A stretch of DNA of 27,593 bases from a virus. This document shows, in pieces, positions 2,848-24,055 of this stretch. The stretch is from positions 1-27,593 of the IMG/VR virus record IMGVR_UViG_3300031951_008299. One strand, given 5' to 3'. The notes under the pieces are model-generated. The model ran no database searches. It had not been told where the DNA came from and saw only the letters and a program-made list of their open reading frames with translations. The position numbers were made by a program, and so were the translations under genes. Every line of letters begins with the position of its first letter. Position 1 is the first letter of the stretch.

Positions 2848-2853
2848 ATACTA

Positions 2854-2880
2854 CAAAAAAACCACCCTGTCAAGGGTGGT
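2854..2880 (-). terminator. Intrinsic terminator of the virion module
   Basis: ACCACCCT and AGGGTGGT (8 bp, 2880-2873 with 2868-2861) enclose a 4-nt loop, with seven Ts after the stem on the minus strand. It lies 20 nt after the stop of the 77-aa gene. Confidence 0.87.
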
Positions 2881-2899
2881 GGACAGTTTGGAAATTGGT

Positions 2900-3133
2900 C
2901 TACCTGTTGTAGACACCTCTTGGGAATACCTGTCCCTGTGATGGTCTTCTACCAGTCAACCAACCTGGTTGTGCCTGGGAAAGATCAAAATCCGTAGAAT
3001 TATAATTATCAGTTTGAACCAAATCACTAGAATTACTAATTGTATAACCAGCAGTTGATTGTGCTAAAAAAGAAACTGTTGTAGCAACTCCTGCCGCTGC
3101 TGTAGTTAAATTTACGATTGTAAAATCAGCCAT
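2900..3133 (-). CDS. Small virion-module protein of unknown function (77 aa)
   Basis: The ATG at 3133 overlaps the stop of the gene before it (TGATG), so I prefer it to the in-frame TTG three bases earlier. The protein starts MADFTIVNLTTAAAGVATTV and is rich in Ser, Thr and Asn. It ends in a basic, Arg-Gly-rich tail, GRRPSQGQVFPRGVYNR, an ending I have seen in short proteins beside cyanophage fibre genes. No known domain is visible and there is no membrane segment long enough to be sure of. Tight coupling to the 522-aa structural gene and a shared terminator suggest a virion or tail-fibre accessory role. That role is inference from position. Confidence 0.75.
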   Translation of the reverse strand: MADFTIVNLTTAAAGVATTVSFLAQSTAGYTISNSSDLVQTDNYNSTDFDLSQAQPGWLTGRRPSQGQVFPRGVYNR

Positions 3134-4701: not shown

Positions 4702-4707
4702 TAGTCT

Positions 4708-6312: not shown

Positions 6313-6329
6313 GAGATGTTTTTAAGTAT

Positions 6330-8387
6330 TTAGATTTGCCTGAAAGATATTCCAGAAAGTTTGACGCCACTAACCGAAGGTTGTGCATTACTAGCAAAAG
6401 GATTTGCCAAAACTCTCCTAATTGCTCCACGTAAACTACCATTACCACGAACATTATAAGAATCATTAGTGAAAGATGATGCATCAAAAGTAGCATTATA
6501 AGTTTGAGACCAATAACCAACATCATTTGGATTTGGATATGGATCAGACAAATTAATTTCAACAGAACCATGTTTTTCTAACCACTCATGCACATCTGAT
6601 TGAGTAGCTTTTCGATTTGATTCAAGATATAATGCAATCACTGAACAAGTATTTGGACAAGCAGAACTTGTACCATTAAACCAACAATCATGAAAATTTG
6701 TGTTATCAACTCTTGTAAAAGATTCATAAGAACTTGTATATCCCGCTGCCATGGACATTTCTGCAGGTGCCCATACATTAATCATTGGACCAGAATTGGA
6801 ATAACAAACTTTTCTGATTGCATATGCTGTAGAACCTTGTTTTGAATCTGCTGGTTCTACAGCACAATCTAAAGCACCAACTCTTATAGTTCCTTTCTTT
6901 CTTTCATGAGTTCCAGTAAATCCTCTACTAATACCACCACAACGATTAATATAGTTTGATGAAAAACTATACCAATTATTAAAATCTATATCGGTCTCAT
7001 CAGCAAATTTTTGATTTTGATTTCCAGCAGAAGTTAAAACAATACATCCAGCAGCAATAGCATTCTCTGCGGCAGAACTAGTTGTTGCATCATGTGGCGT
7101 AAACTGACCACTACCAAGATAATAACTTAGACCAGTTCCAGCGCCAAGATTATAAGTAAAAGTCTTTGTATTTCTACAAGCACCAGCATTTGCCTGAACT
7201 GTAGTATCATTTCCATTTCCAGTATAATTTAATGTTACTCCTCTATATTGATGAGTATATACAGAACCATTTACATTACCTGTTGAGGAAACGTTTCCCC
7301 AACTATTGTTGATGATTGTTGGGTCTGCATTTCCATTTTGAGTAATTTTCTTTGCCTGATGCCAAATCGTACAAACATTCAAAGCAGCACTACCATCAAT
7401 AATTCCACCGACACCACTAAGAGCAATTCTTATATTCCAAACATTACATTCAAATGCTAACCCAAAAGACTTTCCACCAATCTGAGATGCACATGCCGTA
7501 CCATGTCCATCAATCAATTGGTTACTATTGGCATTGGCAGTTTTAGTTGCTACATGGGGGACAGTGTATAAAGCATTTATGGGAATTGTACCCAAACTTT
7601 GAAACTCCGCAGAACGATTAGATGCATTTCCCCACCATGCGGCAGATGCAGTTGTAGCAATACCGACACCAAGATTAACACCATCTACAATTTTAATATA
7701 GGTTAAACCTCTACTATTGAAATAATCTGGATCTACTTTATAAGGTCCATCAAGAATTACATCTTTAACTCTATAAGTTCCATCTCGTCTTTGAAATTCT
7801 GGATGCAAATAAGCAACTCCAGAATCAATGATAACTGCATCAACTCCTTTGCCTGTCAAAGAATAACTAACATCACTCTCAACATATGTCGTACTAGTAA
7901 CTCCAACTCCCTTAAATGGAAGACTGGTAGGATTATTAACAAATAGATGCGACCAATTGGAACGGATATCATTTAAAAAATATGTTGTTTCATTATCAAA
8001 AGCAGCAACTACTTGTGGTTTATTAAATGCTACTGGTTTTTTATATCTTAAGGTATGAGTTGATTGTGGTTGTGGATATTTTTCTGGGTTTAATTCTACA
8101 CTTTCAATTTTTGGATGATTCTTCAATATCTCTGCTTCTTCTTGACTCATCAAATAAATTGAAGTTCTAAGAGAATATTCTTGAATGTTTATACAAGGTA
8201 TTGCTCTATTAGGAATACCATCAATCTCATTCTCATTAATAATGTAATTGTGAACCTCTTCCCAATACTCAGACTCCTCAACAATAACAATATACTCATC
8301 GATAGGATCTGGAGTATATTCTATGACGGGAGTTTCTGGAGATAAAATAATCTCAATATCTTCTGTTACTGGAATTAATCGTGTCAT
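6330..8387 (-). CDS. Subtilisin-like (S8) serine protease in the virion module (685 aa)
   Basis: A full subtilase triad is present: Asp188 in IIDSGVAYLHPEF, His295 in DGHGTACAS and Ser574 in NGTSSACP, with the oxyanion-hole Asn456 (TSAGNQN) and NNSWG at 360-364. Residues about 30-105 look like an inhibitor-I9-type propeptide (YIVIVEESEYW to the end SVELNPEKYP), which folds and then blocks subtilases until cleaved. There is no signal peptide, so it is not exported by the usual route. The last 30 residues (SGVKLSGISFRQI) look like a virion-docking tail. It lies between two fibre genes, 1 nt after one and 17 nt before the other, so it is probably carried on the particle or processes fibres. The protease identity is firm; substrate and location are inferred. 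Confidence 0.93.
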   Translation of the reverse strand: MTRLIPVTEDIEIILSPETPVIEYTPDPIDEYIVIVEESEYWEEVHNYIINENEIDGIPNRAIPCINIQEYSLRTSIYLMSQEEAEILKNHPKIESVELNPEKYPQPQSTHTLRYKKPVAFNKPQVVAAFDNETTYFLNDIRSNWSHLFVNNPTSLPFKGVGVTSTTYVESDVSYSLTGKGVDAVIIDSGVAYLHPEFQRRDGTYRVKDVILDGPYKVDPDYFNSRGLTYIKIVDGVNLGVGIATTASAAWWGNASNRSAEFQSLGTIPINALYTVPHVATKTANANSNQLIDGHGTACASQIGGKSFGLAFECNVWNIRIALSGVGGIIDGSAALNVCTIWHQAKKITQNGNADPTIINNSWGNVSSTGNVNGSVYTHQYRGVTLNYTGNGNDTTVQANAGACRNTKTFTYNLGAGTGLSYYLGSGQFTPHDATTSSAAENAIAAGCIVLTSAGNQNQKFADETDIDFNNWYSFSSNYINRCGGISRGFTGTHERKKGTIRVGALDCAVEPADSKQGSTAYAIRKVCYSNSGPMINVWAPAEMSMAAGYTSSYESFTRVDNTNFHDCWFNGTSSACPNTCSVIALYLESNRKATQSDVHEWLEKHGSVEINLSDPYPNPNDVGYWSQTYNATFDASSFTNDSYNVRGNGSLRGAIRRVLANPFASNAQPSVSGVKLSGISFRQI

Positions 8388-8388
8388 A

Positions 8389-11214
8389 TTACAATAGTGT
8401 AGTTCTTACTAATCTATAAGTAGTTATACCATTAACACCCGTTTCTGGTGTTACTTGCAACTTACATACACCAGCAGAAATTGTTGCGCCAACAGAAACA
8501 ATTAGATATGGTTCTGACATAACACCATACTCCTGCGAATATGCGGTTGTTCCATTTTGCATCACAAGAACTTTCTGTGCCTGAATAGTCCCAGATTGAA
8601 TAAAGTGCAATGTATATTCTGCGGTTTTAAAATCGTTTGTAGAAATCGTAAAACTATCAATGTCAGTTGCAATCCCAGCAGAAGCATTGAATGTTCCAAA
8701 TCCAGTCTTTACACCATATCTCTCAACTTGTAATGGTGTTTGTGGACTTGTTGTTGCAATACCAACATTTGAAAGAGTATGAATACCAGAAGCATTTGTA
8801 ACCCATTGAGTTGGAGTTGCACTAATAGTTACATTTCCTGTAGACTGATTTATCGCAATCCCAGTTCCTGCAATGATAGAAGTTACAATTCCAGTAAGAC
8901 TAATTCCAGATCCAACAAAAGATGTTGCCGTTACAACTCCAACTAGAATATTTGGAGTACCAGTTAATCCCTGAGAAGTTGTAGAAATTCCAGCAGTTGT
9001 AGCATATCCTGCAATTGTGGAGAACCCAGCAGTTGTAGCATAAGTTGAAACACCAGAATTAGGAACATAATTTATAGTGGATGAAACTGTTACAACTCCG
9101 ACAGAAAGCGCAGATACACCCAATCCAAATCCAAAATCAATAGTGCCAGCAAATCCAACTACTGATCCAAGATTTTTAACATTTATTCCAGAACCGCCTC
9201 CACCAACACCAGAAATAGCTACATTAGTAATAGAAGAAATCCTCCCATCATTATCAACAACAATTTGAGGGACAACTGTTGAGTTCCCATAAGTATTTGG
9301 GGATGCGCCAGTAAGGTTGGTTAAAGAAGAACCAGATCCTACAAATGATAATGCTGTTATTACACCAGAAATATTAGCACCTGAAGAAGTAATAATACCA
9401 CTAAAGTTTCCTCTGGTTGCTGTTAGAATACCAACGGAAATACCATTTGCTGTTAAATTACCGCGATTTGTTATGGAATTTAATGTGTCAGTCTCGGTAT
9501 AAGAAGTTAAATATCCAACAATAGAATGGTTACCCCATCCATAAGAAATATCCCAATTACTAATCTGTCCTGAAGTAATTGAAGTAGCAGCACCAGTAAA
9601 AGTATTAAGACCTATTTGAGTATTAACATATCCTGTTGTAGCATAACCTACTAATGCATTGGTAACATAACCAGATGTAACGTACCCAACAATAGAATGG
9701 TTACCCCATCCATAAGAAATATCCCAATTACTAATCTGTCCTGAAGTAATTGAAGTAGCAGCACCAGTAAAAGTATTAAGACCTATTTGAGTATTAACAT
9801 ATCCTGTTGTAGCATAACCTAATGTCGAGTGATCACCCCATCCATAAGAAGTATCCCAATTACTAATTTGTGTATTTGTAATATTTTTTGCAGGAGAAGC
9901 ATTGAATATGGGATCAGTTTCAGTAAATGAAGTTAAATAAGTATTAGAATCAATTGATCCATCTGCTTTTAAAAATTGAGATGAAGTTCCACCAGATTTA
10001 ATGAATGATGATGCTGTTACAACACCAGATACATTTAACTGCTTAGCAAATAATGTCGTTCCAGTAACTGTGTTAATGCCAGAGAAGGTGGATACACCAG
10101 ATACATTTAACTGCTTAGCAAATAATGTCGTTCCAGTAACTGTGGTAATGCCAGAGAAGGTGGATACACCAGATACATTAAGTTGTGTTAGAGATCCTGT
10201 CCCACCACTAACACTTGTAGACACTCCTGAAACATTTGCATAAGTTGCAATACCAGATCTAGAAGCGTATGTTGCAACGCCTGCATTAGTTGCATAGGTG
10301 GCAATACCAGAAATATCTGCATATCCAGCATAAGTAGAAATACCAGCAACATTTGCATACCCAGAATATGTTGATATTCCGGATGTAATCGCATATCCTA
10401 CTTGACCAAACTGATCAAGAGCCGCATTTTCAAATATAAATTTTCCAAGTGAATGGTCATATTTAAGAAACTTCCCATTGTATACACTTGGATTCGTTGC
10501 AATACCAACAATATCATCAAGGTACTTTAATCTGACTTCACCACCACCACCAATACTAGCAAGTTGTTCTTGCAGTCTTCCTACAAGAATTTGATAGTGA
10601 TTTTTTAATTGCTCTAAAGTTACAGGATTTTGTGTCAGAGGGTCATTGCTTTTTGTAGATCCACTAACCAATTCTTCAGATAGTCTTTTATATTTTGCAG
10701 ATAAAATATTAATCTTTTCTTCAAGAGAACCAATATCAATTGATGGTTTCTTTTTTAATTCTACAAATAAATCTTCACGTAAAGAAACAATATCTTTAGC
10801 ATGAGAAGACACATATTTTTCTACTACCTCTTCAACTTGATTCTGATATAATTCTTTGAATATACTTTGTGCTTCTCTAACTTTTATTAACTCAATTGAT
10901 CCTTCAACTAAAGAAAGTTTATGATGATTTTTCCTAACTTCATTTATAGATTCTTCCGTTAGATCTGAATTAAGTTCTTCGTCAATAAAAGATTCTCTCC
11001 AGTCATATAGATTATTTCCTTCCTTTTTTACTTCCACCTCCTCATATAGAGGAGACATTTTTTCCACAGAAGACTTTTGAACGTCAAAAATACTAGAATC
11101 ATTCTTCTGATCAATGACTCCAGTATTTTTAAGTTCTTCATCAAGGTTCTTTATCTTGTTTTCTAAATCTTTAGAAGGTTTAGAATACTTGATAGTCTTC
11201 TTAAAAATTCCCAT
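8389..11214 (-). CDS. Long repeat-rich tail-fibre-like protein with N-terminal coiled coil (941 aa)
   Basis: Residues 1-215 are highly charged and helical (MGIFKKTIKYSKPSKDLENK onwards, with heptad-like Leu/Glu/Lys spacing), a probable coiled coil. The stretch LKYLDDIVGIATNPSVYNGK then leads into long arrays of short beta modules: YAGYADISGIATYATNAGVA repeats, GITTVTGTTLFAKQ modules, and 57-residue units with YGWGNHSIVGY. A C-terminal domain of about 130 residues (after WVTNASGIHTLSNVGIATT) is non-repetitive. Exact 136-bp and near-exact 72-bp direct repeats lie inside the gene (see repeats). The architecture suits a distal tail fibre or a whisker-like appendage. A candidate late promoter lies at 11245-11252. 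It is not a collagen-type Gly-X-Y repeat. Confidence 0.84.
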   Translation of the reverse strand: MGIFKKTIKYSKPSKDLENKIKNLDEELKNTGVIDQKNDSSIFDVQKSSVEKMSPLYEEVEVKKEGNNLYDWRESFIDEELNSDLTEESINEVRKNHHKLSLVEGSIELIKVREAQSIFKELYQNQVEEVVEKYVSSHAKDIVSLREDLFVELKKKPSIDIGSLEEKINILSAKYKRLSEELVSGSTKSNDPLTQNPVTLEQLKNHYQILVGRLQEQLASIGGGGEVRLKYLDDIVGIATNPSVYNGKFLKYDHSLGKFIFENAALDQFGQVGYAITSGISTYSGYANVAGISTYAGYADISGIATYATNAGVATYASRSGIATYANVSGVSTSVSGGTGSLTQLNVSGVSTFSGITTVTGTTLFAKQLNVSGVSTFSGINTVTGTTLFAKQLNVSGVVTASSFIKSGGTSSQFLKADGSIDSNTYLTSFTETDPIFNASPAKNITNTQISNWDTSYGWGDHSTLGYATTGYVNTQIGLNTFTGAATSITSGQISNWDISYGWGNHSIVGYVTSGYVTNALVGYATTGYVNTQIGLNTFTGAATSITSGQISNWDISYGWGNHSIVGYLTSYTETDTLNSITNRGNLTANGISVGILTATRGNFSGIITSSGANISGVITALSFVGSGSSLTNLTGASPNTYGNSTVVPQIVVDNDGRISSITNVAISGVGGGGSGINVKNLGSVVGFAGTIDFGFGLGVSALSVGVVTVSSTINYVPNSGVSTYATTAGFSTIAGYATTAGISTTSQGLTGTPNILVGVVTATSFVGSGISLTGIVTSIIAGTGIAINQSTGNVTISATPTQWVTNASGIHTLSNVGIATTSPQTPLQVERYGVKTGFGTFNASAGIATDIDSFTISTNDFKTAEYTLHFIQSGTIQAQKVLVMQNGTTAYSQEYGVMSEPYLIVSVGATISAGVCKLQVTPETGVNGITTYRLVRTTLL
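9515..9650. repeat. 136-bp exact direct repeat, copy 1 (with 9686-9821)
   Basis: This block is identical, base for base, to 9686-9821. The offset of 171 bp is 57 codons, so gain or loss of a unit keeps the reading frame. It encodes the fibre segment with YVNTQIGLNTFTGAATSITS and NWDISYGWGNHSIVGY. A third, diverged unit follows downstream to about 9870 (NWDTSYGWGDHSTLGY). Confidence 0.95.
9686..9821. repeat. 136-bp exact direct repeat, copy 2
   Basis: Second copy of the block at 9515-9650, separated from it by 35 bp encoding VTSGYVTNALVGY-type linker sequence. Lack of any mismatch, even at silent positions, points to recent duplication or ongoing conversion. Confidence 0.95.
10022..10165. repeat. 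Tandem 72-bp direct repeats (two units, 10022-10093 and 10094-10165)
   Basis: Two adjacent 72-bp units (24 codons) differ at a single base (t or g in the tgNtaatg segment), and the start of a third unit follows at 10166. They encode the module GVSTFSGITTVTGTTLFAKQ plus LNVS. A diverged copy of the same cassette occurs at about 5126-5192 in the other fibre gene. Confidence 0.93.
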
Positions 11215-13228: not shown

Positions 13229-13423
13229 TCAGAAGATCCCGAAGAAGAACTTACCAGTGAGTGCATAAGAAAGAGCACCAGAAACAATACCGACCATTGC
13301 CCAGCGTCCATTGTACTTCTCCTTTACTTGGTTAGGGGTATCCATACCATAGTTTTCGTAGTACATGGTAGGTTCTTTGGCAAACATGTTCTGCTGCCCA
13401 TGCTCATTGGTTGTTACAGTCAT
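13229..13423 (-). CDS. hli: High-light-inducible protein (64 aa)
   Basis: The protein from the ATG at 13423 starts MTVTTNEHGQQNMFAKEPTM. It ends with the Hli chlorophyll-binding helix YNGRWAMVGIVSGALSYAL and a short tail, TGKFFFGIF. Earlier in-frame starts, up to 13462, would lie inside the promoter region, so I reject them. Hli proteins are one-helix relatives of light-harvesting proteins that take up chlorophyll and protect photosystem II. This is the first gene of the electron-transfer operon. Its predicted leader is about 20 nt long, from a TTGACG-TATAAT promoter. The identity is firm. Confidence 0.93.
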   Translation of the reverse strand: MTVTTNEHGQQNMFAKEPTMYYENYGMDTPNQVKEKYNGRWAMVGIVSGALSYALTGKFFFGIF

Positions 13424-13450: not shown

Positions 13451-13479
13451 ATTATATAGCAAAAAGAAAGGGGCGTCAA
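13451..13479 (-). promoter_or_regulatory. Strong sigma70-type promoter of the hli-petF-petE operon
   Basis: TTGACG (13479-13474), a spacer of exactly 17 nt, and a perfect TATAAT (13456-13451) on the minus strand. The -35 box is the loop of the terminator for the glycan operon. Its class differs from the TATAAATA late promoter of psbA, so the two photosynthesis units are probably expressed at different times or by different polymerase forms. Confidence 0.82.
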
Positions 13480-13489
13480 GCCCCCTTTT
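13467..13489 (-). terminator. Intrinsic terminator of the glycan operon
   Basis: AAAGGGG and CCCCTTT (7 bp, 13488-13482 with 13473-13467) enclose the 8-nt loop GCTTGACG, followed by CTTTTTGC on the minus strand. It lies 18 nt beyond the last carbamoyltransferase stop. The T-run is broken by one C, so it may be leaky. Confidence 0.7.
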
Positions 13490-13506: not shown

Positions 13507-15291
13507 TTATTTGAGAAACAAATAGTCTTCAAGTATTAGAAAATCTAATTCTGTATTTTCCAATACATAAAAAGCATCTTCAACAGTTGTAAGAATTGGA
13601 TTACCTTTAATATTGAAAGAGGTGTTTAGAATTACAGCATCATGCCCACGATTATCAAGTTCAGTCAGAATGTCATAAAACAATTCATGTTGATCTCTGG
13701 TTACAGTTTGAAGTCTTGCAGTACCATCAACATGAGTTATCGCAGGTAGTTTTTGCCGATACTCCTCTTTCACCAATGGAGCAAAAGACATGTATGGAGA
13801 TGCAAAGGCATTATCAAAGTAAATGTCTTTATCCTCCTCTCGGCAAACAGGACCGAAAGGTCGGAACCATTCCCTAAACTTAACTTTAGCATTTAGAGTA
13901 TCTTTCATTTCTGGAATACTTGGATCACAAATGATACTTCGATTACCCAAAGCACGAGGTCCAACTTCAGAATAACCAATCATTGTGGCACCAATCTTCC
14001 CTTCCTTGATTAGATCTACAATTTTAGAAACATTCATATCTACTACCTTATCAATTTTACTATACTTATCATAATACTCTGGAATTTTTTCTCTGTCAAG
14101 AATATCAAATCCACAATAGACTGAAAACTTATCGTTCATAGTTTTATCTATAGAACAAAAATGTCCATAAGATAATCCATCATCCCCAGGATTAGGGGAC
14201 ACAAAAAGTTTTCTATTTGTCTTGTTCAAATGTTCTGCAACCTTTTGATTGAAGATTACATTCAAAGCACATCCACCAGAAAATACTACATCAAAATCAT
14301 ACTTATCAAGGTATGGTTTAATTAATTTCCAACAAAGTTCTTCAAAGACGTGTTGATTTGTCGCAGCTAAATCATAACTATGTTTTCCAGATAGACAATT
14401 AATGGTTGACTTTAAAAGTGTTGTAATATCATCCAGAGAATTTTGATTATCGGATAAAAATGCACTTATTACATCTTCATTTTCTTCTCGATTAGATAAT
14501 AAAGTACTTATCATTTGTTGCCCAACCATTATAGAAACCATGGGATTTTGTGCATCTGCTGGAGTCATCATGTAATTTTGTTTGATAACATCAATCCATT
14601 CTTTTCTAACATTTCCATAAGCAACTAGACCCATCAACTTCCCAGCATTTGAATTGAGATAATCTGCAGAAACATACTTCTGATTTGAATCAAACATTTT
14701 TTCAAGATGATCTGTCTTATTCTTATCCTCAATCTCAGATATCAGTTGAAGTGGGGACGCATATTGACCTGGAGTAAACACCATGGCATTAGATGAATTC
14801 AATGTCAATAATACATCAACTTTTTGGTCAGATATTTTAAGAATACTATAACCAATAAGAGGACATTGTTGGGGATTCTTCACTATTCCATAGTGATTAT
14901 TTTCCAACCCGCCACCATCCAGAGATATTACAAGAGCATCTTTAAATCCACTTTGATGATAGGCACCGATACAATGGGAAGTATGATGACCCATTGAAAT
15001 AAATTTAGAATTGGGAAACAATCTTTTCATCAAAGAAAAGTCTTCGTCAATAACCACACTATAAAGAATATAAGTTGGTTCTTCTTTGAGTTGGAATTTA
15101 ATATAGTCTAAAAATTTAACCCTATCCTCAAACTTAGAGTCTTGTTCATTTTCTTTTCTAAATTTTTTAAATGAGCAATGTTTTATCTTAGTAAATCTTT
15201 CTAGTTGAAAAATTCTTAATTGATTATTTTTATCTACGCACGTTACTGAACAATCATGCCCACCATGAATGGCAAGTATTTTAGAATTCAT
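13507..15291 (-). CDS. Carbamoyltransferase, NodU/CmcH family, full length (594 aa)
   Basis: Two domains are seen. The N-terminal half (1 to about 400) is the ASKHA/Kae1-like carbamoyl-adenylate-forming part, with IHGGHDCS (8-15), MGHHTSHCIGAYHQSGFKDA, VISLDGGG and DVVFSGGCALNVIFNQK. The C-terminal half (about 405-594) has EVGPRALGNRSIICDPS and LNTSFNIKGNPI, the carbamoyl-transfer domain. Such enzymes use carbamoyl phosphate and ATP to O-carbamoylate sugars (as NodU does) or antibiotics. It is the last gene of the glycan operon and the only complete one of three tandem paralogs; its start overlaps the stop of the preceding copy by 4 nt. The probable role is to decorate the glycan built by this operon. 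The exact acceptor sugar is unknown. Confidence 0.92.
   Translation of the reverse strand: MNSKILAIHGGHDCSVTCVDKNNQLRIFQLERFTKIKHCSFKKFRKENEQDSKFEDRVKFLDYIKFQLKEEPTYILYSVVIDEDFSLMKRLFPNSKFISMGHHTSHCIGAYHQSGFKDALVISLDGGGLENNHYGIVKNPQQCPLIGYSILKISDQKVDVLLTLNSSNAMVFTPGQYASPLQLISEIEDKNKTDHLEKMFDSNQKYVSADYLNSNAGKLMGLVAYGNVRKEWIDVIKQNYMMTPADAQNPMVSIMVGQQMISTLLSNREENEDVISAFLSDNQNSLDDITTLLKSTINCLSGKHSYDLAATNQHVFEELCWKLIKPYLDKYDFDVVFSGGCALNVIFNQKVAEHLNKTNRKLFVSPNPGDDGLSYGHFCSIDKTMNDKFSVYCGFDILDREKIPEYYDKYSKIDKVVDMNVSKIVDLIKEGKIGATMIGYSEVGPRALGNRSIICDPSIPEMKDTLNAKVKFREWFRPFGPVCREEDKDIYFDNAFASPYMSFAPLVKEEYRQKLPAITHVDGTARLQTVTRDQHELFYDILTELDNRGHDAVILNTSFNIKGNPILTTVEDAFYVLENTELDFLILEDYLFLK
14909..14995. 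repeat. 87-bp exact repeat shared by two carbamoyltransferase copies (with 17334-17420)
   Basis: This block in the full-length gene is identical to 17334-17420 in the third copy. It encodes the MGHHTSHCIGAYHQSGFKDA histidine segment and part of the following SLDGGG loop. Flanking sequence and the middle copy (about 16121-16205) differ at many silent sites. Confidence 0.93.
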
Positions 15292-16499
15292 AACTCAATT
15301 ACCTTACCATCTTTTTTATATTTTTCATAATACTCTGGAATTTTTTCTCTGTCAAGAATATCAAGTCCGCAGTACACTGAAAATTTGTCATCAAAGGTTT
15401 TATCTATAGAGCATACATGCCCATAAGATAATCCATCGTCACCAGGATCAGGGGATACAAAAAGTTTTCTATTATTCTTACTCAGATATTCCATGATCTT
15501 CTGATTTGATAAAACATTTAATGCACATCCACCAGAAAATACAACGTCCAAATCACATTCATCAATATAAGGTTGAATCAACTCCCAACAAAGTTCTTCA
15601 AAGACATATTGGTTTGTCGCGGCAAGATCATAGCTTTCCTGTCCAGAAAACCAATTTTGATCTGGACGAACACCAATAATGCTGGCAAAACTAATAAGCA
15701 AAGATTTTATATGTTTTGGAGTATGAACTTCATCAGGTCCTGCAAGATAAACCAACTTAACGGAATTAATCCACTCTTCTCTAACTTTTCCATAAGCAGC
15801 AAGACCCATTAGTTTGCCAGCACAAACCTTAGCCATGTTTCTCAATTTCCAGAAAGGAGAATCATTGAGTTTTATGTTTGAATCAGATTGCTCAAGAAGA
15901 GACTTTATAAATTCTGTAATTCTTTTATCTCCCTTATATGGGTCGATTTCGGATATGGCAGGAACTAAAGCAGTATAACTTCCCGGAGTAAAATTCATGG
16001 CACCAGGAAAATTAGTTGCTAATAAAACATCAACCTTTTTATCAAGTATCTTGACAATACTATAACTTATTTCTACCCCTTTAGGGTTTTTAGTTATACC
16101 ATAATGATTATTATCAAAACCCCCACCATCTAATGAGATAACCAATGCATCTTTAAATTGACTTTGATGATAGGCACCGATACAGTGAGACGTGTGATGT
16201 CCCATCTCAATAAATTTAGATTCTTTAAATTTACTTTTTAAGATATCAAGATAATATCGGTTCCCAAAGTAACTATAGAGAACATATTTTGGTTCTTCTT
16301 TGAGTTGCGATTTAATATGATCTAGAAAACTTTTTTTCTGTTCTATTCTAATGTCTGTTGTATAACTATCACATTCAAAATTATCGTGCTTTATCTTAGT
16401 AAATCTCTCAAGTTGAAAAATTCTCACTTGATTATTTTTATCTACAAAGGTAGCAGAACAGTCATGCCCACCATGAATAGCGAAGATCTTTGAATTCAT
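15288..16499 (-). CDS. Carbamoyltransferase paralog, N-terminal domain only (403 aa)
   Basis: It starts MNSKIFAIHGGHDCSATFVD, like its neighbours, and keeps the N-domain motifs: the MGHHTSHCIGAYHQSQFKDA histidines, SLDGGGFDNNHYG, the Gly-rich GKLMGLAAYG and VVFSGGCALNVLSNQK. It then ends at GKVIEL, exactly where the full-length copy enters its carbamoyl-transfer domain. The stop overlaps the next ATG (TTATGAATTC). The frame is clean, so this is not obviously a decayed gene. It could act with the full copy as a subunit, make carbamoyl-adenylate for it, or be a non-transferring leftover. It differs from both neighbours at many residues, so the duplication is not very recent overall. Confidence 0.9.
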   Translation of the reverse strand: MNSKIFAIHGGHDCSATFVDKNNQVRIFQLERFTKIKHDNFECDSYTTDIRIEQKKSFLDHIKSQLKEEPKYVLYSYFGNRYYLDILKSKFKESKFIEMGHHTSHCIGAYHQSQFKDALVISLDGGGFDNNHYGITKNPKGVEISYSIVKILDKKVDVLLATNFPGAMNFTPGSYTALVPAISEIDPYKGDKRITEFIKSLLEQSDSNIKLNDSPFWKLRNMAKVCAGKLMGLAAYGKVREEWINSVKLVYLAGPDEVHTPKHIKSLLISFASIIGVRPDQNWFSGQESYDLAATNQYVFEELCWELIQPYIDECDLDVVFSGGCALNVLSNQKIMEYLSKNNRKLFVSPDPGDDGLSYGHVCSIDKTFDDKFSVYCGLDILDREKIPEYYEKYKKDGKVIEL

Positions 16500-17698
16500 A
16501 ATCTAATAACTTTACCCCACTTGTGGTATTTATTATAATACTCCAATATCTTATCTCTATCTAAAATGTCAAGTCCACAATAAACAGAAAACTGATCTTT
16601 CATAGTTTTATCAACTGAACAGACATGTCCATAGGATAAACCTTCATCACTTGGTGTGGGAGATATAAAAAGATTTCGATTTGTTTTACTTAAGTATTGA
16701 CTGACCTTTTGATTAAAAACAACGTTTAATGCACACCCACCCGAGAACACCACATCAAAATTATACTGATCAATATAAGGTTTAATTAAATCCCAACAAA
16801 GTTCTTCAAAGACATGCTGGTTTGTCGCAGCAAGATCATAACTTTCTTGTCCCGATAAACAATTTTGTGTCAGTGGTTTACTGATAGATTTAGATAGTCC
16901 AACAATAGATGCTTTTAGATTGAATGGTAAATGAATTTCTTTTGGAAGAAGTAGATAAATGTTTCTTATCGATTCAACCCACTCTTTTCTTATCCTCCCA
17001 TAAGAAGACAATCCCATTAATTTACCAGCACATATTCTTGCCTTACTTCTCAATCTCCAAAAAGGAGAATCTTCTTGACTAGTATATTGAATTAAACTAT
17101 CTTCCTTTTGTGCTTCCTCCATACACTCTGCAATTTCAGCATCAGACTTATATGGATCAATTTCAGATATTAAAGGCACGATAGCAGTATATGTACCGGG
17201 GGTAAACTTAGGCGAATTTAAAGAGTCCGATGTCAAAAGAACATCAACTTTACCATTATCAATTTGGAGAATACTATATGTTATTTCTATTCCATCCAGA
17301 TCTTTAGATATTCCATAATGCCCATACTCTATACCGCCACCATCCAGAGATATTACAAGAGCATCTTTAAATCCACTTTGATGATAGGCACCGATACAAT
17401 GGGAAGTATGATGACCCATTTTTAAAAACTTTGCATTTTTAAAATAAGTTTTTACTATTCCCAGATACTCTTCAGAGATATAACTGTATAAAACATACTG
17501 GGGTTCTTCCTTTAATTCGGATTTAGCATGTTGTAAGAATTGATGTCTAGTCTTATCCGTCAAATCTTTATGCTCAAGAGTATCATTCTTAATCTTTGTA
17601 AACCTTTCCAATTCAAAAATCCTTAGTTGATTATTTTTATCAACTAAGGTTATTGAACAATTATGTCCTCCATGTATGGAAAGAATTTTTGAATTCAT
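16496..17698 (-). CDS. Carbamoyltransferase paralog, N-terminal domain only, second copy (400 aa)
   Basis: It starts MNSKILSIHGGHNCSITLVD and has the same N-domain motifs as the other two, including MGHHTSHCIGAYHQSGFKDA, the SLDGGG phosphate loop, GKLMGLSSYGRIRKEWVE and DVVFSGGCALNVVFNQK. It ends GKVIRL at the same domain boundary as the copy at 15288-16499. One position that is His-Asp-Cys in the other two is His-Asn-Cys here. An 87-bp block (17334-17420) is identical to the full-length gene. The start follows the GT25 stop with a 1-nt gap and the stop overlaps the next copy by 4 nt. As with the other short copy, activity alone is doubtful because the transfer domain is absent. Confidence 0.9.
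   Translation of the reverse strand: MNSKILSIHGGHNCSITLVDKNNQLRIFELERFTKIKNDTLEHKDLTDKTRHQFLQHAKSELKEEPQYVLYSYISEEYLGIVKTYFKNAKFLKMGHHTSHCIGAYHQSGFKDALVISLDGGGIEYGHYGISKDLDGIEITYSILQIDNGKVDVLLTSDSLNSPKFTPGTYTAIVPLISEIDPYKSDAEIAECMEEAQKEDSLIQYTSQEDSPFWRLRSKARICAGKLMGLSSYGRIRKEWVESIRNIYLLLPKEIHLPFNLKASIVGLSKSISKPLTQNCLSGQESYDLAATNQHVFEELCWDLIKPYIDQYNFDVVFSGGCALNVVFNQKVSQYLSKTNRNLFISPTPSDEGLSYGHVCSVDKTMKDQFSVYCGLDILDRDKILEYYNKYHKWGKVIRL
17334..17420. repeat. 87-bp exact repeat, second copy
   Basis: Partner of 14909-14995 in the same orientation, 2425 bp apart. Perfect identity within otherwise diverged paralogs suggests gene conversion or strong local constraint. Confidence 0.93.
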
Positions 17699-17699
17699 A

Positions 17700-18485
17700 T
17701 TATTCTTGACGATCTTCTGTGACTCTCCCCAAATAAGGATCGTAATCCATGAGTTCTGCTATTCCTATCTCAGGACCACTTTGTTCCCAAAAATTTCTTA
17801 GACCATCATGACTTGATCGATGAATGAAGTCAATATGCTCAGGATGAATGGAAGATCCCAATTCAATTTTATAAAGAAATACTGGAATTGAGAAAGTATT
17901 ACCCGAATTATAAATTAGATCATCTGCAACAGGACGTGGTTTCACACCATTATCAAGTTTATACTTATCACCACGAACATGATGCTTCAGAAGTTTTTCA
18001 GCATGATGTCTCGTGATCATGTATGCTGCCGTAGAAAAATCATTGACAAATCTCTTATGAAGTTTAACATGTAAAGGACCTGTACAAATAATAGCAAGTT
18101 GAATCACATCCCAATCATATGGAACCTTTGATGCAAAATCTGTCCAGGTAAAATTCCAAAATCGAACAGGATCTAAATCTACATCATCTTCCATGATGAT
18201 TGCATATGGACTATCAGATGTTTCCATCCAATGTTTGATCGCCTTTAGATGGCTAGTAATACACCCAATCTCACCAGAGGTCATCATCTCTGGGTAACGT
18301 CCTTTAATAATATCACTAAGATCATCTTCTCTACCATCATAAGCAGATATACGAGTATAGTTTTCTATTTCCCAATACTTCATTTGATCTTCCATATATT
18401 GCATCCTTTCTGGTTGTTCATCCAGATTGAGATAATAAATTGGAGCAATATTTTTCAGTTTAAAAGCAGATTTATTTTTATCCAT
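17700..18485 (-). CDS. Glycosyltransferase family 25 (LPS-type)
   Basis: The 261-aa protein shows the GT25 pattern: IYYLNLDEQPERMQYME near residues 16-32, then EIGCITSHLKAIKHWMETSD near 73-92, and the acidic IIMEDDVDLDP motif near 97-107 that binds the metal-nucleotide sugar. GT25 enzymes add galactose or glucose residues to lipooligosaccharide in bacteria and to collagen in animals. Here it would extend the glycan made by the operon. The start overlaps the preceding fucosyltransferase-like gene by 8 nt. The donor sugar is not predictable from sequence. Family assignment is good; pathway role is inferred. Confidence 0.87.
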   Translation of the reverse strand: MDKNKSAFKLKNIAPIYYLNLDEQPERMQYMEDQMKYWEIENYTRISAYDGREDDLSDIIKGRYPEMMTSGEIGCITSHLKAIKHWMETSDSPYAIIMEDDVDLDPVRFWNFTWTDFASKVPYDWDVIQLAIICTGPLHVKLHKRFVNDFSTAAYMITRHHAEKLLKHHVRGDKYKLDNGVKPRPVADDLIYNSGNTFSIPVFLYKIELGSSIHPEHIDFIHRSSHDGLRNFWEQSGPEIGIAELMDYDPYLGRVTEDRQE

Positions 18486-19338
18486 CTTGATATGATTTTT
18501 TTAATAAAATTGCAGTCTGTAAGAATGAACTATTTGATGTCTTCATCATATCAGATTTAGAGAGAATATACAAGTCGATGATTGCTTGTCTGACACTTTC
18601 ATCAGACCTTTCAACATTAAATGGATATTCAACTCCGGTGTCATCAACAATTACCGATCTCCATTCACCTTCGTCAGTTAATTTCTCAACATAACTGGTC
18701 TTTGGATATACGGAAACATTTTCCAATTGATTAAATTTATTTTCAAGTTCTTCATCATCAGAACAAACAAAATATTTGGTTTCATTAGTATCAGACACTT
18801 GATTAAAAATCTGATCAAAATCTGGTTTATGTGGATCATAGAAGTCAGTGTTTCTCAAATGAACCCCGACAAAAGATTCTCCAAAATTTGAGTTAATAAA
18901 ATCATTAGCCTTGTCAACCAGTTGTGAATTAAATTCAATATCACGTATTACATCTACAATCTCATCTTCACTGAGGTAAGATAAAAGTGTGTCATTGTTA
19001 TAAACTATTTTTTGTTTTTCTGTGTTTGCACAAAACTCAGAGAGGTTTTGAAGAGACCCGAAACTTTCTGGATGATGTACACTTGTATTGAAATTCAAAA
19101 AATTACCATGCATTAAAAATTCATATTCTTGAATATCAGTCTCAAAGTAATGAAGATTTTCTTCTATGACATGCAGATCAGTTTTAAACAAGGTACTAAA
19201 CCTCGATCTACACCAATTTGTAAGTGGCCAAACAACGACTGGTTCGAATCCAGTTTTTGTACAGATTGAAAGTCCACAAACCAAAGAGTTGAATCTGTTT
19301 CCAAATCCACCATCACAATAGATATAAATTTGTTTCAT
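18478..19338 (-). CDS. Fucosyltransferase-like GT-B glycosyltransferase (NodZ/O-FucT-like, 286 aa)
   Basis: The N terminus IYIYCDGGFGNRFNSLVCGL is the nucleotide-sugar enzyme signature GxxGN near the start. VGVHLRNTDFYDPH (about 158-171) matches the HxRxxD motif of fucosyltransferases that contact GDP-fucose. FVCSDDEELENKF and the C-terminal KSDMMKTSNSSF complete the pattern. Such enzymes move fucose or similar sugars from GDP carriers. The operon's first gene is a GDP-mannose 3,5-epimerase that makes GDP-L-galactose, so L-galactose may be the donor; this is my inference. Overlaps of 4 nt (before) and 8 nt (after) tie it to the methyltransferase and GT25 genes. Confidence 0.75.
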   Translation of the reverse strand: MKQIYIYCDGGFGNRFNSLVCGLSICTKTGFEPVVVWPLTNWCRSRFSTLFKTDLHVIEENLHYFETDIQEYEFLMHGNFLNFNTSVHHPESFGSLQNLSEFCANTEKQKIVYNNDTLLSYLSEDEIVDVIRDIEFNSQLVDKANDFINSNFGESFVGVHLRNTDFYDPHKPDFDQIFNQVSDTNETKYFVCSDDEELENKFNQLENVSVYPKTSYVEKLTDEGEWRSVIVDDTGVEYPFNVERSDESVRQAIIDLYILSKSDMMKTSNSSFLQTAILLKKSYQDG

Positions 19339-19922
19339 ACTACCACCACCAATCTATCATCAGATTTCTTTCTTAAATCAAGTTCGACAATATACACTTC
19401 TTTGGTTGGATAAAGATTAAGAATAAAAGACTTAAGATCTTCTGCATCTTCCTTAGTCTGAACATCTTCACAGATATAGATTCCACCATCACTAATGTAT
19501 GGATAATAGTTTTCAAAATTTTTCATCTGTTGACTTAATTGATGATTAGCATCATCTAAAATAATATCAAAACTTAAGTCATGAAGATGACTCGAAATCA
19601 GATTAGGATCTTCACAATTAAAATTAAAAAGAGTAATCCTTTCGTGACTATTAATTTCCTCCATTACAGCATCACCATCAACTGGTTCATACTGATAGTG
19701 CCATTGACCATCTTCCTGAGAAAAATCTTCGATGCCATAAATTTGGGAGTTTTCAAAATACTTCTCCCACATTTTCAGAGATCCGCCAAATAGCACTCCA
19801 ATTTCTAGGACATTTAATTTTTCTGCCCTACGTTCAGAAAAAGTATCTTCATACCACCCAATGTAACTATGTGCGGTGCCTTTGTCAGTCTTGAATTGTG
19901 TATGAATATCAGTGAGTTTCAT
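19335..19922 (-). CDS. SAM-dependent methyltransferase (195 aa)
   Basis: A class I methyltransferase-like core: KTDKGTAHSYIGWYEDTF, then VLEIGVLFGGSLKMWEKYF (motif I), IYGIEDF (motif II acid) and FDIILDDANHQ (motif IV). The start of the LEIGV block resembles sugar O-methyltransferases of the MycE/cephalosporin-hydroxylase group. I chose the ATG at 19922 (MKLTDIHTQF) because GGAG lies upstream and the overlap with the previous gene is then only 14 nt; a longer 206-aa reading from 19955 would overlap 47 nt. It probably O-methylates a sugar of the glycan. The acceptor is unknown. Confidence 0.8.
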   Translation of the reverse strand: MKLTDIHTQFKTDKGTAHSYIGWYEDTFSERRAEKLNVLEIGVLFGGSLKMWEKYFENSQIYGIEDFSQEDGQWHYQYEPVDGDAVMEEINSHERITLFNFNCEDPNLISSHLHDLSFDIILDDANHQLSQQMKNFENYYPYISDGGIYICEDVQTKEDAEDLKSFILNLYPTKEVYIVELDLRKKSDDRLVVVV

Positions 19923-20712
19923 GCTCTTTTCTCCAATCATCGTAGACTTGCTCATTTAAATAACCATCCAGATCTAAATCATTTTGTGTTTTGTTATGTA
20001 CAGACATTATTCTTTTTTCAAAATTATCTACTGGATTATCTTTCGTTGATCCATTACTTTTAAAATGAACAGCATATGTACCATCAACTAATTCTAAGTC
20101 CGCACAAACTTTTAACTCATCCAAATAGCCAATTTTTAAATCGTCCAGGTTGTTTCTAAGAGTAAGATTCAATGCAGGTGTCTCATGTGGAAAAGGTGTT
20201 TTATTTTCAACAAACTCTTCCATCTGAGTAATCCATCTTTGAATAAATCTCTTACACTTGGGAATATTATTGAAGATGACAAAACTTGCAATCTCACTAA
20301 TGTGTATCCCATCACCTCTTGTGTGACCACCAGTGCTCATTGTAGTGACCTGGATATCATAGTATGGTGCAATGATGGGTTCTATATCTCTTAGAACACA
20401 TACATCACTATCAATCATAATAACAGGATGATCAAAATCAATTACATGAAAAAGTTTATTAAGAGACTTAGTTTTCATCTGAGTGGCTTTAACCCACCCC
20501 TCAGAATGAACACCACTATATTCATCAATACAATCAGTATCTAGAATACTTACCTTATCTTTATCCTTGATTGGTTTTTGGTATTCACCAAGTCCACTAT
20601 CTGCAACATAAATTCTATCTAGATTTTTACAATTTTCTATTGCAGAACTTGTAAAAATATCTAGAAAAGGATAATAAGACTTATTCGCAGTTGTAAAAAT
20701 ACTATAGTTCAT
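19909..20712 (-). CDS. GT-A type glycosyltransferase (GT8-like/nucleotide-diphospho-sugar, 267 aa)
   Basis: The pattern is of GT-A enzymes: an N-terminal SIFTTANKSYYPFLDIFTSS that binds nucleotide, VIMIDSDVCVLRDIEPI with the metal-binding DSD, ASFVIFNNIPKCKRFIQRWI and PHETPALNLTLRNN, then a C-terminal YAVHFKSNGS. This is most like GT8 and related nucleotide-diphospho-sugar transferases. No membrane segment is seen. It lies between two methyltransferase genes. The added sugar cannot be inferred. The glycosyltransferase fold is probable; the exact family is uncertain. Confidence 0.7.
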   Translation of the reverse strand: MNYSIFTTANKSYYPFLDIFTSSAIENCKNLDRIYVADSGLGEYQKPIKDKDKVSILDTDCIDEYSGVHSEGWVKATQMKTKSLNKLFHVIDFDHPVIMIDSDVCVLRDIEPIIAPYYDIQVTTMSTGGHTRGDGIHISEIASFVIFNNIPKCKRFIQRWITQMEEFVENKTPFPHETPALNLTLRNNLDDLKIGYLDELKVCADLELVDGTYAVHFKSNGSTKDNPVDNFEKRIMSVHNKTQNDLDLDGYLNEQVYDDWRKEHETH

Positions 20713-20718
20713 CTGTTA

Positions 20719-21255
20719 TCAAAGTTGAGCCACAATAATATCGTCAGCAATACATCCATCCTCAAAAGAAATTTTATAGTCGGGATTAATATCGGTCATT
20801 GCTTCAATTAAAAGTTCTTCATCAAGATCTTCTCCCCAGTTACTTCCAGAGAGTCCAAAGATTCTACGATCATCAACTAACAAAGTGTGAGTTTTGATTG
20901 GATGCTCAAGCAGGGCTTCCAATTCAAATGGAAGTGGACACTTGTATTCACCCAGAACATCACCATCCCAATGAGCATCTAACCAAAAGGTAGCAGGAGC
21001 ATCTACTTTTGAAATGACATCTTTAAAAACTTTAAAGGTATCTCCTTCGACAATTTCTACTAGACCCTCTTCAATTTCTTTTTGAAACTTTTCAGTGTTA
21101 TACTTTACTTTTTCTGGATCAATTTCAATCGAATAGATTTTTTTGAATCCACACTCTAGAGCAACTTCAACTGCTTCTCCCCATAGAGTTCCAGTTTCTA
21201 CAAAAATATCATTCTTATATTTTTGCAATACTTCTTTTTTTAATGTTGTAGACAT
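20719..21255 (-). CDS. Small SAM-methyltransferase-like protein (178 aa)
   Basis: The sequence FVETGTLWGEAVEVALECGF followed by KKIYSIEIDPEKV resembles motif I and II of class I methyltransferases, and FWLDAHWDGD and LLVDDRRIFG follow in the right order for an FkbM-like or sugar-methyltransferase relative. The protein is short for the fold but complete to a normal C terminus (DGCIADDIIVAQL). Gaps of 3 and 6 nt join it to the asparagine-synthase-like gene before and the glycosyltransferase after it. The likely role is methylation of a sugar hydroxyl or of a carboxyl group in the glycan. It could be catalytically dead; I cannot judge the SAM pocket fully. Confidence 0.68.
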   Translation of the reverse strand: MSTTLKKEVLQKYKNDIFVETGTLWGEAVEVALECGFKKIYSIEIDPEKVKYNTEKFQKEIEEGLVEIVEGDTFKVFKDVISKVDAPATFWLDAHWDGDVLGEYKCPLPFELEALLEHPIKTHTLLVDDRRIFGLSGSNWGEDLDEELLIEAMTDINPDYKISFEDGCIADDIIVAQL

Positions 21256-21258
21256 ACT

Positions 21259-22581
21259 TTAAAATCCTCTTTTAATGTTAGCTTCAAACGGATAGTTTGA
21301 TTTAGTCAGATATTCATCCAAAACAGATTTGTATTTTGAATTTTTTAATTTGTGATCCAACCAAAGAAATTCTTGTACGACGTATTTATCCAGATATGGA
21401 TAGCGGGTTTCAATGCCATATGATCCCGCAACGTACTCTTCCTTTGCCAGATAAGAAACCATAGTGCTCCCATAAAAAGATGCCCAAGGGAAAATAGTTG
21501 AAATATCTTCTGGAAATAATCCACCAAAATTACTATGAAGAAATTTTTTCTCACCATTAAATCCATAGTCTGAAAATATTTCATCAGATCCAGATCCAGA
21601 AAGATAAACTTTCTTACCTTGTTTTTTAGCATTATCACAAATCATAGATAAACCACAAGATCCATTATCATCTTGAAGTCTTCTGTCGAATTCATTATAG
21701 TCACTGCTGGAAGAATAAATCCGATATTTAAATTCTTCTACATTTCTATTAATATAATCTCTATATTGCCAACGATGATCTGCAAGATATTGACCAGAAG
21801 AATTACTATTAAACATGGAGAATCTTTTATCTAAGATTTCCTGATTTTCATTTCCAACAACAGCATAAGCTTTATAAGGAACGTTTTGCTTGGTCAATTC
21901 ACATGCAATAGCACCACTATCATATCCACTGGACAGACCAATAAAAATATTTTCCCTAAGATTAGATGTACGCTTACGAATAGAATTTTCAAAGGCAACA
22001 ATCCAATCGGAAAAATCTGTTTTATATTGCTTCAAATCAAAATCATAAACGAAAAATTCATTAAGTAATTTTCTCGATTCAAGATCAAAAACTTGAGTAG
22101 TATTTGCATCTAGTTTGATTGCAGTTCTAAATCCCAATGCTTTTACTGCAGATTCATAAGTTGCAACTGCAAGAGTTTCGCCAATTGAAAACCACAATGG
22201 TTTCGTGGCAAATACGTCAGTAGATATAATAAAACGATCGTTCTTAAAGTCAACTAGAACAATTGCAAATTCACCATCAAGTTCTTTTACAAATTTATCC
22301 CCATACTTTTTGTAAAGAGGAATCAAACACTCACCATCAGAAGTATATTCACCAAACTCTTGATAATTATAAATCTCACCATTATAGATACAGACAATCT
22401 GATCATCATGATCTACAAAAGGTTGCTCGGTAAATTCACCAGTGATGGATAAAATATTATGTGTGAATGTATATTCATTAACTTCAATAGTCCTAGTTGC
22501 ATCAGGACCACGAAATCTCATAAAATGATTTACATGATCAAAATCATCAATATCCTTATCAGTAAAAAGAAAACTACACAT
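21259..22581 (-). CDS. Asparagine-synthase-like glutamine amidotransferase (440 aa)
   Basis: Residue 2 is Cys, the glutaminase nucleophile exposed after loss of Met1, with FRGPD (23-27) and NGEIYNY (67-73) of the N-terminal nucleophile domain. The synthetase half has the PP-loop GLSSGYDS (215-222), YLSGSGSDEIFSDYG and GIETRYPYLDKYVVQ. It is shorter than host asparagine synthetase (about 550-650 aa). In LPS gene clusters AsnB relatives amidate uronic acids, and a UDP-glucose dehydrogenase gene lies two genes upstream in this operon, so a sugar-amidating role is more likely than asparagine supply. This role is inferred. Its start overlaps the preceding stop by one base (TGATG). Confidence 0.88.
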   Translation of the reverse strand: MCSFLFTDKDIDDFDHVNHFMRFRGPDATRTIEVNEYTFTHNILSITGEFTEQPFVDHDDQIVCIYNGEIYNYQEFGEYTSDGECLIPLYKKYGDKFVKELDGEFAIVLVDFKNDRFIISTDVFATKPLWFSIGETLAVATYESAVKALGFRTAIKLDANTTQVFDLESRKLLNEFFVYDFDLKQYKTDFSDWIVAFENSIRKRTSNLRENIFIGLSSGYDSGAIACELTKQNVPYKAYAVVGNENQEILDKRFSMFNSNSSGQYLADHRWQYRDYINRNVEEFKYRIYSSSSDYNEFDRRLQDDNGSCGLSMICDNAKKQGKKVYLSGSGSDEIFSDYGFNGEKKFLHSNFGGLFPEDISTIFPWASFYGSTMVSYLAKEEYVAGSYGIETRYPYLDKYVVQEFLWLDHKLKNSKYKSVLDEYLTKSNYPFEANIKRGF

Positions 22582-23282
22582 CAGAATGTTCTACTATGAT
22601 TTGATACGATTACTTGAGGCATAATTGAATTGCCTCTAATTGTATTAGCAACACCAGGAAGAATGGATAGATTAATACCGAGTTGATGGCACACAAAAGG
22701 AAAACTTAACTGATCTCTGGATGAGAACATACATATTTGTTCCCACCACATTAATCCCATCTTTTGAGTCAATTCATTATTGCGCTGAAATCTTACGGGA
22801 AGTTCATACAATCCATTACCTTCAGGATAGCACATATCTTTATAAAAGGCAAGTTGATCATCAATCAAATTTGGATAATCAAATTTTATCTCTTTGATAA
22901 ACTCACCCTCTTCATAAATGCATTGACGTTGTGGATGTTCAAAGACTGCAACATCAGTATCTTTAAGGTAGGTTTCTACAAGTTGATTTGGATCTTGATC
23001 TAAAATATGTGTGGAATCAATCCAAAAATAGTAATCATATCCTGGGAGAAATGCAAAAGGAATTATCTTATAAATTTTTGCGTTTCTCCTGTTTGCATAA
23101 ACTGGGTCCGCAGAAAATTGAATAGCAGAATGTTGATTCCAATATTGAAGATCAGGATGCTCAATCCAATCTTTACTATCACTTTCATTATCTACAAAAG
23201 CATGATAATCAACGTTATCAAATTTCTTTTGTGGTAAAAGACTATTTGTTCCTATTGAAGCAGTTATAACAGCAATCTTCAT
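22581..23282 (-). CDS. TOD1/MUCI70-type glycosyltransferase-like protein (233 aa)
   Basis: The stretch ANRRNAKIYKIIPFAFLPGY followed by DYYFWIDSTHIL and SSRDQLSFPFVCHQLGI resembles the TOD1/MUCI70 glycosyltransferase-like domain (PF04765, formerly DUF616). That fold is GT-A-like with a WxD-type acidic motif (WIDS here) in place of DxD. No transmembrane segment is seen. It is coupled to the short UDP-glucose dehydrogenase (4-nt overlap) and the asparagine-synthase-like gene. It probably adds a sugar to the glycan; the donor is unknown. The family call is from memory of its motifs. Confidence 0.75.
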   Translation of the reverse strand: MKIAVITASIGTNSLLPQKKFDNVDYHAFVDNESDSKDWIEHPDLQYWNQHSAIQFSADPVYANRRNAKIYKIIPFAFLPGYDYYFWIDSTHILDQDPNQLVETYLKDTDVAVFEHPQRQCIYEEGEFIKEIKFDYPNLIDDQLAFYKDMCYPEGNGLYELPVRFQRNNELTQKMGLMWWEQICMFSSRDQLSFPFVCHQLGINLSILPGVANTIRGNSIMPQVIVSNHSRTF

Positions 23283-24055
23283 GGTTCAACACTTCTATGC
23301 TTATCATTCAGTTCTCTAATAAACTTAATCAAAGGACTTTGACTAAACTTTTCAAGTTCATAATTATCTTTTGTTAGGCAATGACTTTCCCATCCAAACT
23401 TACCATCACTACCAGGAACTTGAGAATGTGAATGACCAATCCTCTCATCAAGTCCAACCATTTCAGCAAAATTAGCATAAGTAGATTCACAACCTTGCTG
23501 CTGATGTGCTAGGTACATCTCATTAAAGAAAGTAACCCTGAGTGCCAAGAAAGCATTTTCAGCATACTTGACTAGTGCTGCTGTTTTAATGTCAGTAATT
23601 TTAATATCTTTGACATGGGCCAGTCTAGTTTTAAAGATATCTGCAACCTTCATAGCGGCATCTTCATCACCACCAAGGATAAAGAATTTTTGTCCTTGGA
23701 ACATTTTAATAGGATTAGTCTTGTTCAAATATTCTGGACTATGCAAAATTTTAATGTTGGTATATCGATCAACAACATCTGAATAAAATTCAGGAGTAGC
23801 AGTTGACTTGCAGCAAACTGGAGTATTAGGTAACATATTCTCATTCAATTCTGATAAGACAGAATCCAATAGTTGAAAACCTTCTGCTTTTGGTGTATCA
23901 ACAGAAACAAATACAGCATCAAATTCTTGATTTTTAAAGTCACTAATTTTATTATTATTGAATTTTGGATCAATAATAGTTTTCTCACCCTCAGAAAAAA
24001 TTGATGCTACAGCAGATCCAACGAATCCAAACCCAACAATTAAAACTTTGTACAT
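23279..24055 (-). CDS. UDP-glucose/GDP-mannose dehydrogenase-like, lacking C-terminal domain (258 aa)
   Basis: It has the N-terminal NAD fold (VGFGFVGSAV, 7-16), SPEYLNKTNP (106-115), the central-domain signature LVKYAENAFLALRVTFFNEM with catalytic Lys163 and Asn167, and catalytic Cys226 in SHCLTKDNYEL. It ends 32 residues later, so the C-terminal UDP-binding domain of about 100-150 residues found in ordinary enzymes (430-450 aa) is missing. The full enzymes oxidise UDP-glucose to UDP-glucuronate. Short forms occur in other cyanophages, from memory. With catalytic Cys and Lys kept it may still act on a sugar nucleotide. It precedes the TOD1-like gene with a 4-nt overlap. Confidence 0.84.
   Translation of the reverse strand: MYKVLIVGFGFVGSAVASIFSEGEKTIIDPKFNNNKISDFKNQEFDAVFVSVDTPKAEGFQLLDSVLSELNENMLPNTPVCCKSTATPEFYSDVVDRYTNIKILHSPEYLNKTNPIKMFQGQKFFILGGDEDAAMKVADIFKTRLAHVKDIKITDIKTAALVKYAENAFLALRVTFFNEMYLAHQQQGCESTYANFAEMVGLDERIGHSHSQVPGSDGKFGWESHCLTKDNYELEKFSQSPLIKFIRELNDKHRSVEP

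Follow-up and report, generated by a model that had tools for sequence, protein, structure and literature searches.

The question raised by this locus is what two genes encoding only the transfer half of a two-domain carbamoyltransferase could do directly ahead of a gene for the whole enzyme. The window, that is, the whole stretch of DNA analysed, is an IMG/VR record of 27.6 kb and a fragment of a larger phage genome. It comes from a cyanomyovirus and carries psbA with an endonuclease VII gene, which are closest to the S-PM2 region, as well as plastocyanin, ferredoxin and peroxiredoxin-like genes recognized by Pfam. Three tandem NodU/TobZ-type genes, designated A, B and C, all lie on the minus strand, and both the sequence and Pfam bear out the original prediction that two of them are cut at the same domain boundary and that all are joined by 4-nt overlaps. 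The features are as follows.

17700-26645, minus strand: glycan biosynthesis cluster upstream of the array (Pfam)
16496-17698, minus strand: gene A, stand-alone Kae1-like carbamoyl-transfer domain, 400 aa, ending GKVIRL (Carbam_trans_N only)
16496-16499, minus strand: A/B junction, ATGA stop/start overlap of 4 nt (sequence)
15288-16499, minus strand: gene B, stand-alone Kae1-like carbamoyl-transfer domain, 403 aa, ending GKVIEL (Carbam_trans_N only)
15288-15291, minus strand: B/C junction, ATGA stop/start overlap of 4 nt (sequence)
13507-15291, minus strand: gene C, full-length NodU/TobZ-type carbamoyltransferase, 594 aa (Carbam_trans_N and Carbam_trans_C)
13510-14031, minus strand: residues ~421-594 of C, forming the YrdC-like activation domain; no second one lies in the window (model alignment to TsaC)
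13467-13487, minus strand: terminator-like hairpin closing the operon 3' of C (sequence)

In TobZ, GdmN and HypF the labour is divided: ATP and carbamoyl phosphate are turned into carbamoyl-AMP by the YrdC-like domain, and the Kae1-like domain performs the transfer (PMC9654439, PMC9633730). Pfam places Carbam_trans_N in A, B and C and Carbam_trans_C (426-593) in C, finding none in A or B, whose chains stop at the position equivalent to residue 416 of C, directly before the YrdC-like domain. The conserved site of this domain, K471-x-R473 and S558-x-N560, of which K471 and S558 correspond to K443 and S530 of TobZ, is likewise present only in C, while A and B are devoid of the KxR...SxN signature. 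The AF2 model of C (pLDDT 88) gives VIA Z 38 to GdmN and 33 to TobZ, its residues 2-384 aligning to TsaD/Kae1 and residues 415-589 to TsaC with Z 12.6. By its own AF2 model (pLDDT 85; VIA Z 24-25 to NovN/GdmN/TobZ and 15-18 to TsaD/Kae1) B folds as the Kae1-like half. The closest solved folds are those of GdmN, NovN and TobZ.

The transfer site is complete in all three proteins. The class III hallmark of the Kae1-like part (HxxxH, D and D as metal ligands, plus an N-terminal histidine base) is retained in C as well as in A (iron ligands H96, H100, D119 and D351, base H12) and B (metal ligands H101, H105, D124 and D354, base H12), in line with the earlier claim that the short forms have intact frames and conserved active motifs. 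Across 58 homologs, 35 positions of the N domain reach at least 90% conservation; at essentially all of these A and B agree with C or with the family, the single departure among strictly conserved sites being E29 to Q, common to B and C. The original prediction had also proposed that the short forms supply the full enzyme with carbamoyl-adenylate. This part fails, since A and B have no YrdC-like domain, which is what makes carbamoyl-adenylate; the proposed flow is therefore reversed, and it is the full enzyme that would feed the short ones. The mixed complex of short and full proteins, suggested there as an alternative, may still form.

The stop/start overlaps at both junctions suggest coupled translation of the three genes. 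A programmed frameshift joining A, B and C is unlikely: at TTATGA the shift would have to be into the -1 frame, and no canonical slippery heptamer is seen there. The cluster just upstream encodes GT25, O-FucT-like, methyltransferase-like, Nucleotid_trans and Asn synthase-like proteins, together with a TOD1-type GT, a UDP-glucose dehydrogenase-like protein, GT2, GT11 and an epimerase. Within the first codons of A (17621-17649) there is a hairpin with a perfect 11-bp stem followed by a T-rich stretch, imperfect in B and C, which could be due to chance or to attenuation.

As to the maintenance of the short genes, the array is intact and identically arranged in the IMG/VR contigs L004 and L005, the only ones returned by single-protein scans with P0002 and P0003. 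L004 is 99.99% identical to the window at the nucleotide level and belongs to the same population; L005, from another metagenome and ~90% identical, represents a second one. Between the window and L005, which make up the one effective comparison behind the selection estimates, dN/dS is 0.095 for A (38.5 nonsynonymous changes per 953 sites and 81.5 synonymous per 247 sites), 0.035 for B and 0.031 for C, at a dS of 0.44-0.47 for A and B; the neighbouring genes show 0.038-0.076, A being slightly higher and B and C slightly lower. We regard it as nearly certain that A and B are under functional (purifying) selection, and the low dN/dS, with the intact array in the second population, indicates that selection keeps the short forms, as had been anticipated. 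A dN/dS near one or broken copies had been named as signs of the opposite; neither is seen in the window, L004 or L005. It is extremely improbable that the two short genes are relics of a tandem duplication, decaying or neutral: their truncation at one boundary, beside a short similarity able to mediate illegitimate recombination, would fit such an origin, but the low ratios at this dS and the frames intact in two populations contradict it, and the status of pseudogene or relic is ruled out by dN/dS.

The paralogs share 60-65% protein identity with near-saturated synonymous sites, which excludes a recent duplication as well as copies created in assembly. In the N-domain tree the three genes group together in a single clade (support 100/100) and are descendants of one ancestor; C branches first, and A and B are sisters (97/92). 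Every copy pairs with its own L005 counterpart, so both duplications are older than the split between the window and L005. Three further features bear on this history.

15278-15291, minus strand: start of gene C, ATGAATTCTAAAAT, resembling the internal ATGAATGTTTCTAAAAT
14021-14037, minus strand: ATGAATGTTTCTAAAAT inside C, at codon 419 on the domain boundary, similar to ATGAATTCTAAAAT; candidate breakpoint for the N-domain duplication
17334-17420, minus strand: 87 nt of A that match C 14909-14995 without a difference, probably through gene conversion (sequence identity)

The internal ATGAATGTTTCTAAAAT is the best local match to the C start within C and is seen in L005 too. Recombination between the two sites would copy exactly the N domain, and we infer that A and B may have originated in this way; if they arose by later duplication of an already truncated unit, one truncation would suffice. 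A conversion-like tract also links A and B in L005. The two tracts could be taken to mean that the main role of A and B is to donate sequence to C, diversifying it by gene conversion. This is very unlikely, however, as the tracts sit in conserved catalytic segments rather than in divergent ones, and A and B are themselves under selection at the protein level.

The catalytic segments are mostly 72-89% identical between A, B and C, whereas identity drops to 24-53% in residues 37-92, 141-212 and 236-300 (C numbering). Helix 1 of the GdmN pocket (85-98) maps onto the first of these regions, at the predicted helix 54-67 of C, and helix 2 probably onto the second, both placements being approximate and made by residue offset from GdmN, counted from the metal ligands, not by superposition of a complex. 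Divergence between the paralogs has affected regions that probably shape the acceptor pocket, and has spared the catalytic core and the inter-domain segment. The latter, residues 377-416, is 72-80% identical in spite of heavily diverged synonymous sites; it comes after the Kae1 fold and leads into the YrdC-like domain in C, and nothing follows it in A and B. Such conservation would follow if the short proteins still came into contact with a YrdC-like domain, and is suggestive of this contact being retained in trans. The loop 371-380 of B has a pLDDT of ~42 when B is modelled alone, and the corresponding loop of C ~94; the low value could be a mere effect of the truncated model.

Stand-alone Kae1-like and YrdC-like ORFs are common in phages. 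A first survey with A/B-like queries (79 viral and 29 genomic loci) gave no other clean N-only gene, the exception being a MAG locus (L112) with the two domains in two overlapping ORFs in different frames; the apparent uniqueness of N-only genes to the array was then overturned by S-SSM7 and, afterwards, by split loci. Less than 2 kb separates an N-only gene from a full-length one in the Synechococcus phages S-SSM7 and Sf-FS3, S-SSM7 having three full-length carbamoyltransferases and one N-only. A 2OG oxygenase gene stands just ahead of the full-length/N-only pair in both (L126:2674-6049 and L133:493-5155, respectively). S-RIM44, Sf-CH3 and S-SCSM1 encode the two halves of the enzyme separately, in a YrdC-like ORF of ~180 aa and a Kae1-like ORF of 340-410 aa (L134:2465-4086, L135:1962-3589 and L137:103-3685), with the catalytic residues retained in the halves. 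The order of the ORFs, C then N, rules out a frameshifted full-length gene. The annotated start of the N ORF of S-RIM44 is downstream of the base histidine, and the match continues upstream of this start. Searches of the whole records of the complete S-RIM44 and Sf-CH3 genomes revealed exactly one stand-alone C and one stand-alone N in each and no other carbamoyltransferase copy. These split pairs adjoin thymidylate synthase (S-SCSM1 being C N C N), which suggests carbamoylation of DNA bases.

Among 80 IMG/VR loci found with N-only proteins, which were not de-duplicated, so that the counts are not independent, the order C N accounts for 33, N alone for 15, C N C N for 11, N C for 8, N C N for 5 and C N C N N for 4; C N N C N, C N N C N N, N C N N and a fused NC are each represented once. 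All tested records of at least ~18 kb having an N-only ORF also have a C domain; five short records of 6.6-16.2 kb, in which N-only ORFs occur with no C domain, are fragments and so carry no weight here. Kae1-like ORFs outnumber YrdC-like ones in L145, L178, L180, L194, L197 and L206 (C N C N N, C N N C N or C N N C N N). Six other viral contigs (L047 and L053-L057) carry two full-length carbamoyltransferase genes in tandem or near each other. The N-N-NC tandem with overlapping genes was met only in the lineage of the window. The original statement that no such split is known consequently stands for characterised enzymes in the literature searched, and falls for uncharacterised split forms, common in phage genomes; of the latter, no description was found in this literature, where subscription journals are mostly missing.

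Taken together, these data lead us to lean towards the view that A and B are transfer subunits that use carbamoyl-AMP made by C on different hydroxyls of a glycan. Its computed basis is the domain content, purifying selection, the transfer-site residues, the absent activation domain, common ancestry and the stand-alone halves elsewhere. According to this scheme, A and B would be functional Kae1-like carbamoyl-transfer subunits, unable to activate carbamoyl phosphate themselves, and the YrdC-like domain of the co-translated C would make the carbamoyl-AMP used by them in trans, handed over either in a transient complex or by diffusion. Together with the transfer domain of C itself they would carbamoylate two or three different acceptor hydroxyls, most likely those of sugars in the glycan produced by the neighbouring upstream cluster. 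As for the separate parts of the scheme, catalytic transfer by A and B in trans with a YrdC-like partner is reasonably probable, a glycan as the acceptor moderately so, and the use of different acceptors by A, B and C is evenly poised between true and false. Sharing in trans is not automatic, since in TobZ and HypF the intermediate moves through an intramolecular channel (PMC9654439).

The tandem arrangement of coupled genes would also suit a hetero-oligomer in which A and B are non-catalytic partners stabilising or regulating C, like the TsaD paralog TsaB with TsaD. TsaB is degenerate at the metal site; A and B, unlike TsaB, have the base and the full set of four metal ligands preserved under selection, and so we find this explanation unlikely. 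It draws some support from GdmN, a homodimer with the pocket of each subunit lined by its partner (PMC9633730). The source of the activated carbamoyl is a separate matter. The window is a fragment, and several carbamoyltransferases are frequent in cyanophages, as in S-SSM7, so A and B might be transfer subunits supplied mainly by another phage or host YrdC-like protein, which may lie beyond the 27.6 kb. We give this a small chance: C is adjacent, co-directional and translationally overlapping, and the product of host TsaC, threonylcarbamoyl-AMP, is a different compound. Like the split phage form, the locus has stand-alone Kae1-like ORFs with an intact transfer site (A and B); no stand-alone YrdC-like ORF lies beside them in the window, the YrdC-like domain of the locus being fused in C. 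Tentatively, and with slightly less than an even chance, one shared YrdC-like module may serve several stand-alone Kae1-like modules, each having its own acceptor, in a modular many-to-one phage system, of which the window array would be the half-split form and the C N C N N loci the fully split form.

Among the known systems, C has the whole architecture and the catalytic residues of class III (NodU/TobZ/GdmN-type) O-carbamoyltransferases, including a YrdC-like domain with KxR...SxN in the same chain. The characterised enzymes of this class have both domains in one chain, whereas A and B represent only the Kae1-like half. In tRNA t6A synthesis (TsaC/Sua5 and TsaD/Kae1) the activating YrdC-like and the transferring Kae1-like proteins are separate chains, as proposed for the array; the likeness shown is of fold only, the acceptor there being tRNA and the intermediate threonylcarbamoyl-AMP, while in the array the sole YrdC-like domain shares a chain with a third Kae1-like domain. 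Of the phage Nol-like carbamoyltransferases, grouped in PHROG 1601 (full-length) and 20469 (C domain), A, B and C all match phrog_1601; S-SSM7 and Sf-FS3, like the window, pair a full-length gene with an N-only one, and the tandem N-N-NC differs from them. The 5-hydroxymethylcytosine carbamoyltransferase is a phage class III enzyme too, a single 63-kDa chain encoded beside thymidylate synthase (eLife 2021, PMC8670742). The array has the class in common with it but differs in its surroundings: Pfam finds no thymidylate synthase or hydroxymethylase beside the array, its neighbours being glycan genes for glycosyltransferases and sugar enzymes.

The N-N-NC array is new among class III carbamoyltransferases; beyond this one locus, phages commonly have split forms with a surplus of transfer modules. 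As these enzymes are known as two-domain proteins with an internal channel, the selected halves and the transfer-surplus arrays make both the sharing of carbamoyl-AMP between chains and the evolution of acceptor specificity directly testable. The stand-alone halves are also ready-made parts for carbamoylating different acceptors, and their occurrence suggests that phage glycans or DNA bases bear more carbamoyl groups than appreciated.

Some other features of the window deserve mention. An unlisted ORF of 64 aa at 13229-13423 resembles a high-light-inducible protein and is preceded by a promoter-like TTGACG-17-TATAAT, which overlaps the array terminator. A repetitive tail-fibre-like protein of 941 aa (8389-11214) has internal direct repeats of ~86 bp. 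The interval from the peroxiredoxin-like gene to psbA (2680-11200) is occupied by a subtilase (6330-8387) and tail-fibre-like genes, ~8.5 kb in all; in L005 this stretch is missing, and psbA follows the peroxiredoxin-like gene within ~200 bases.
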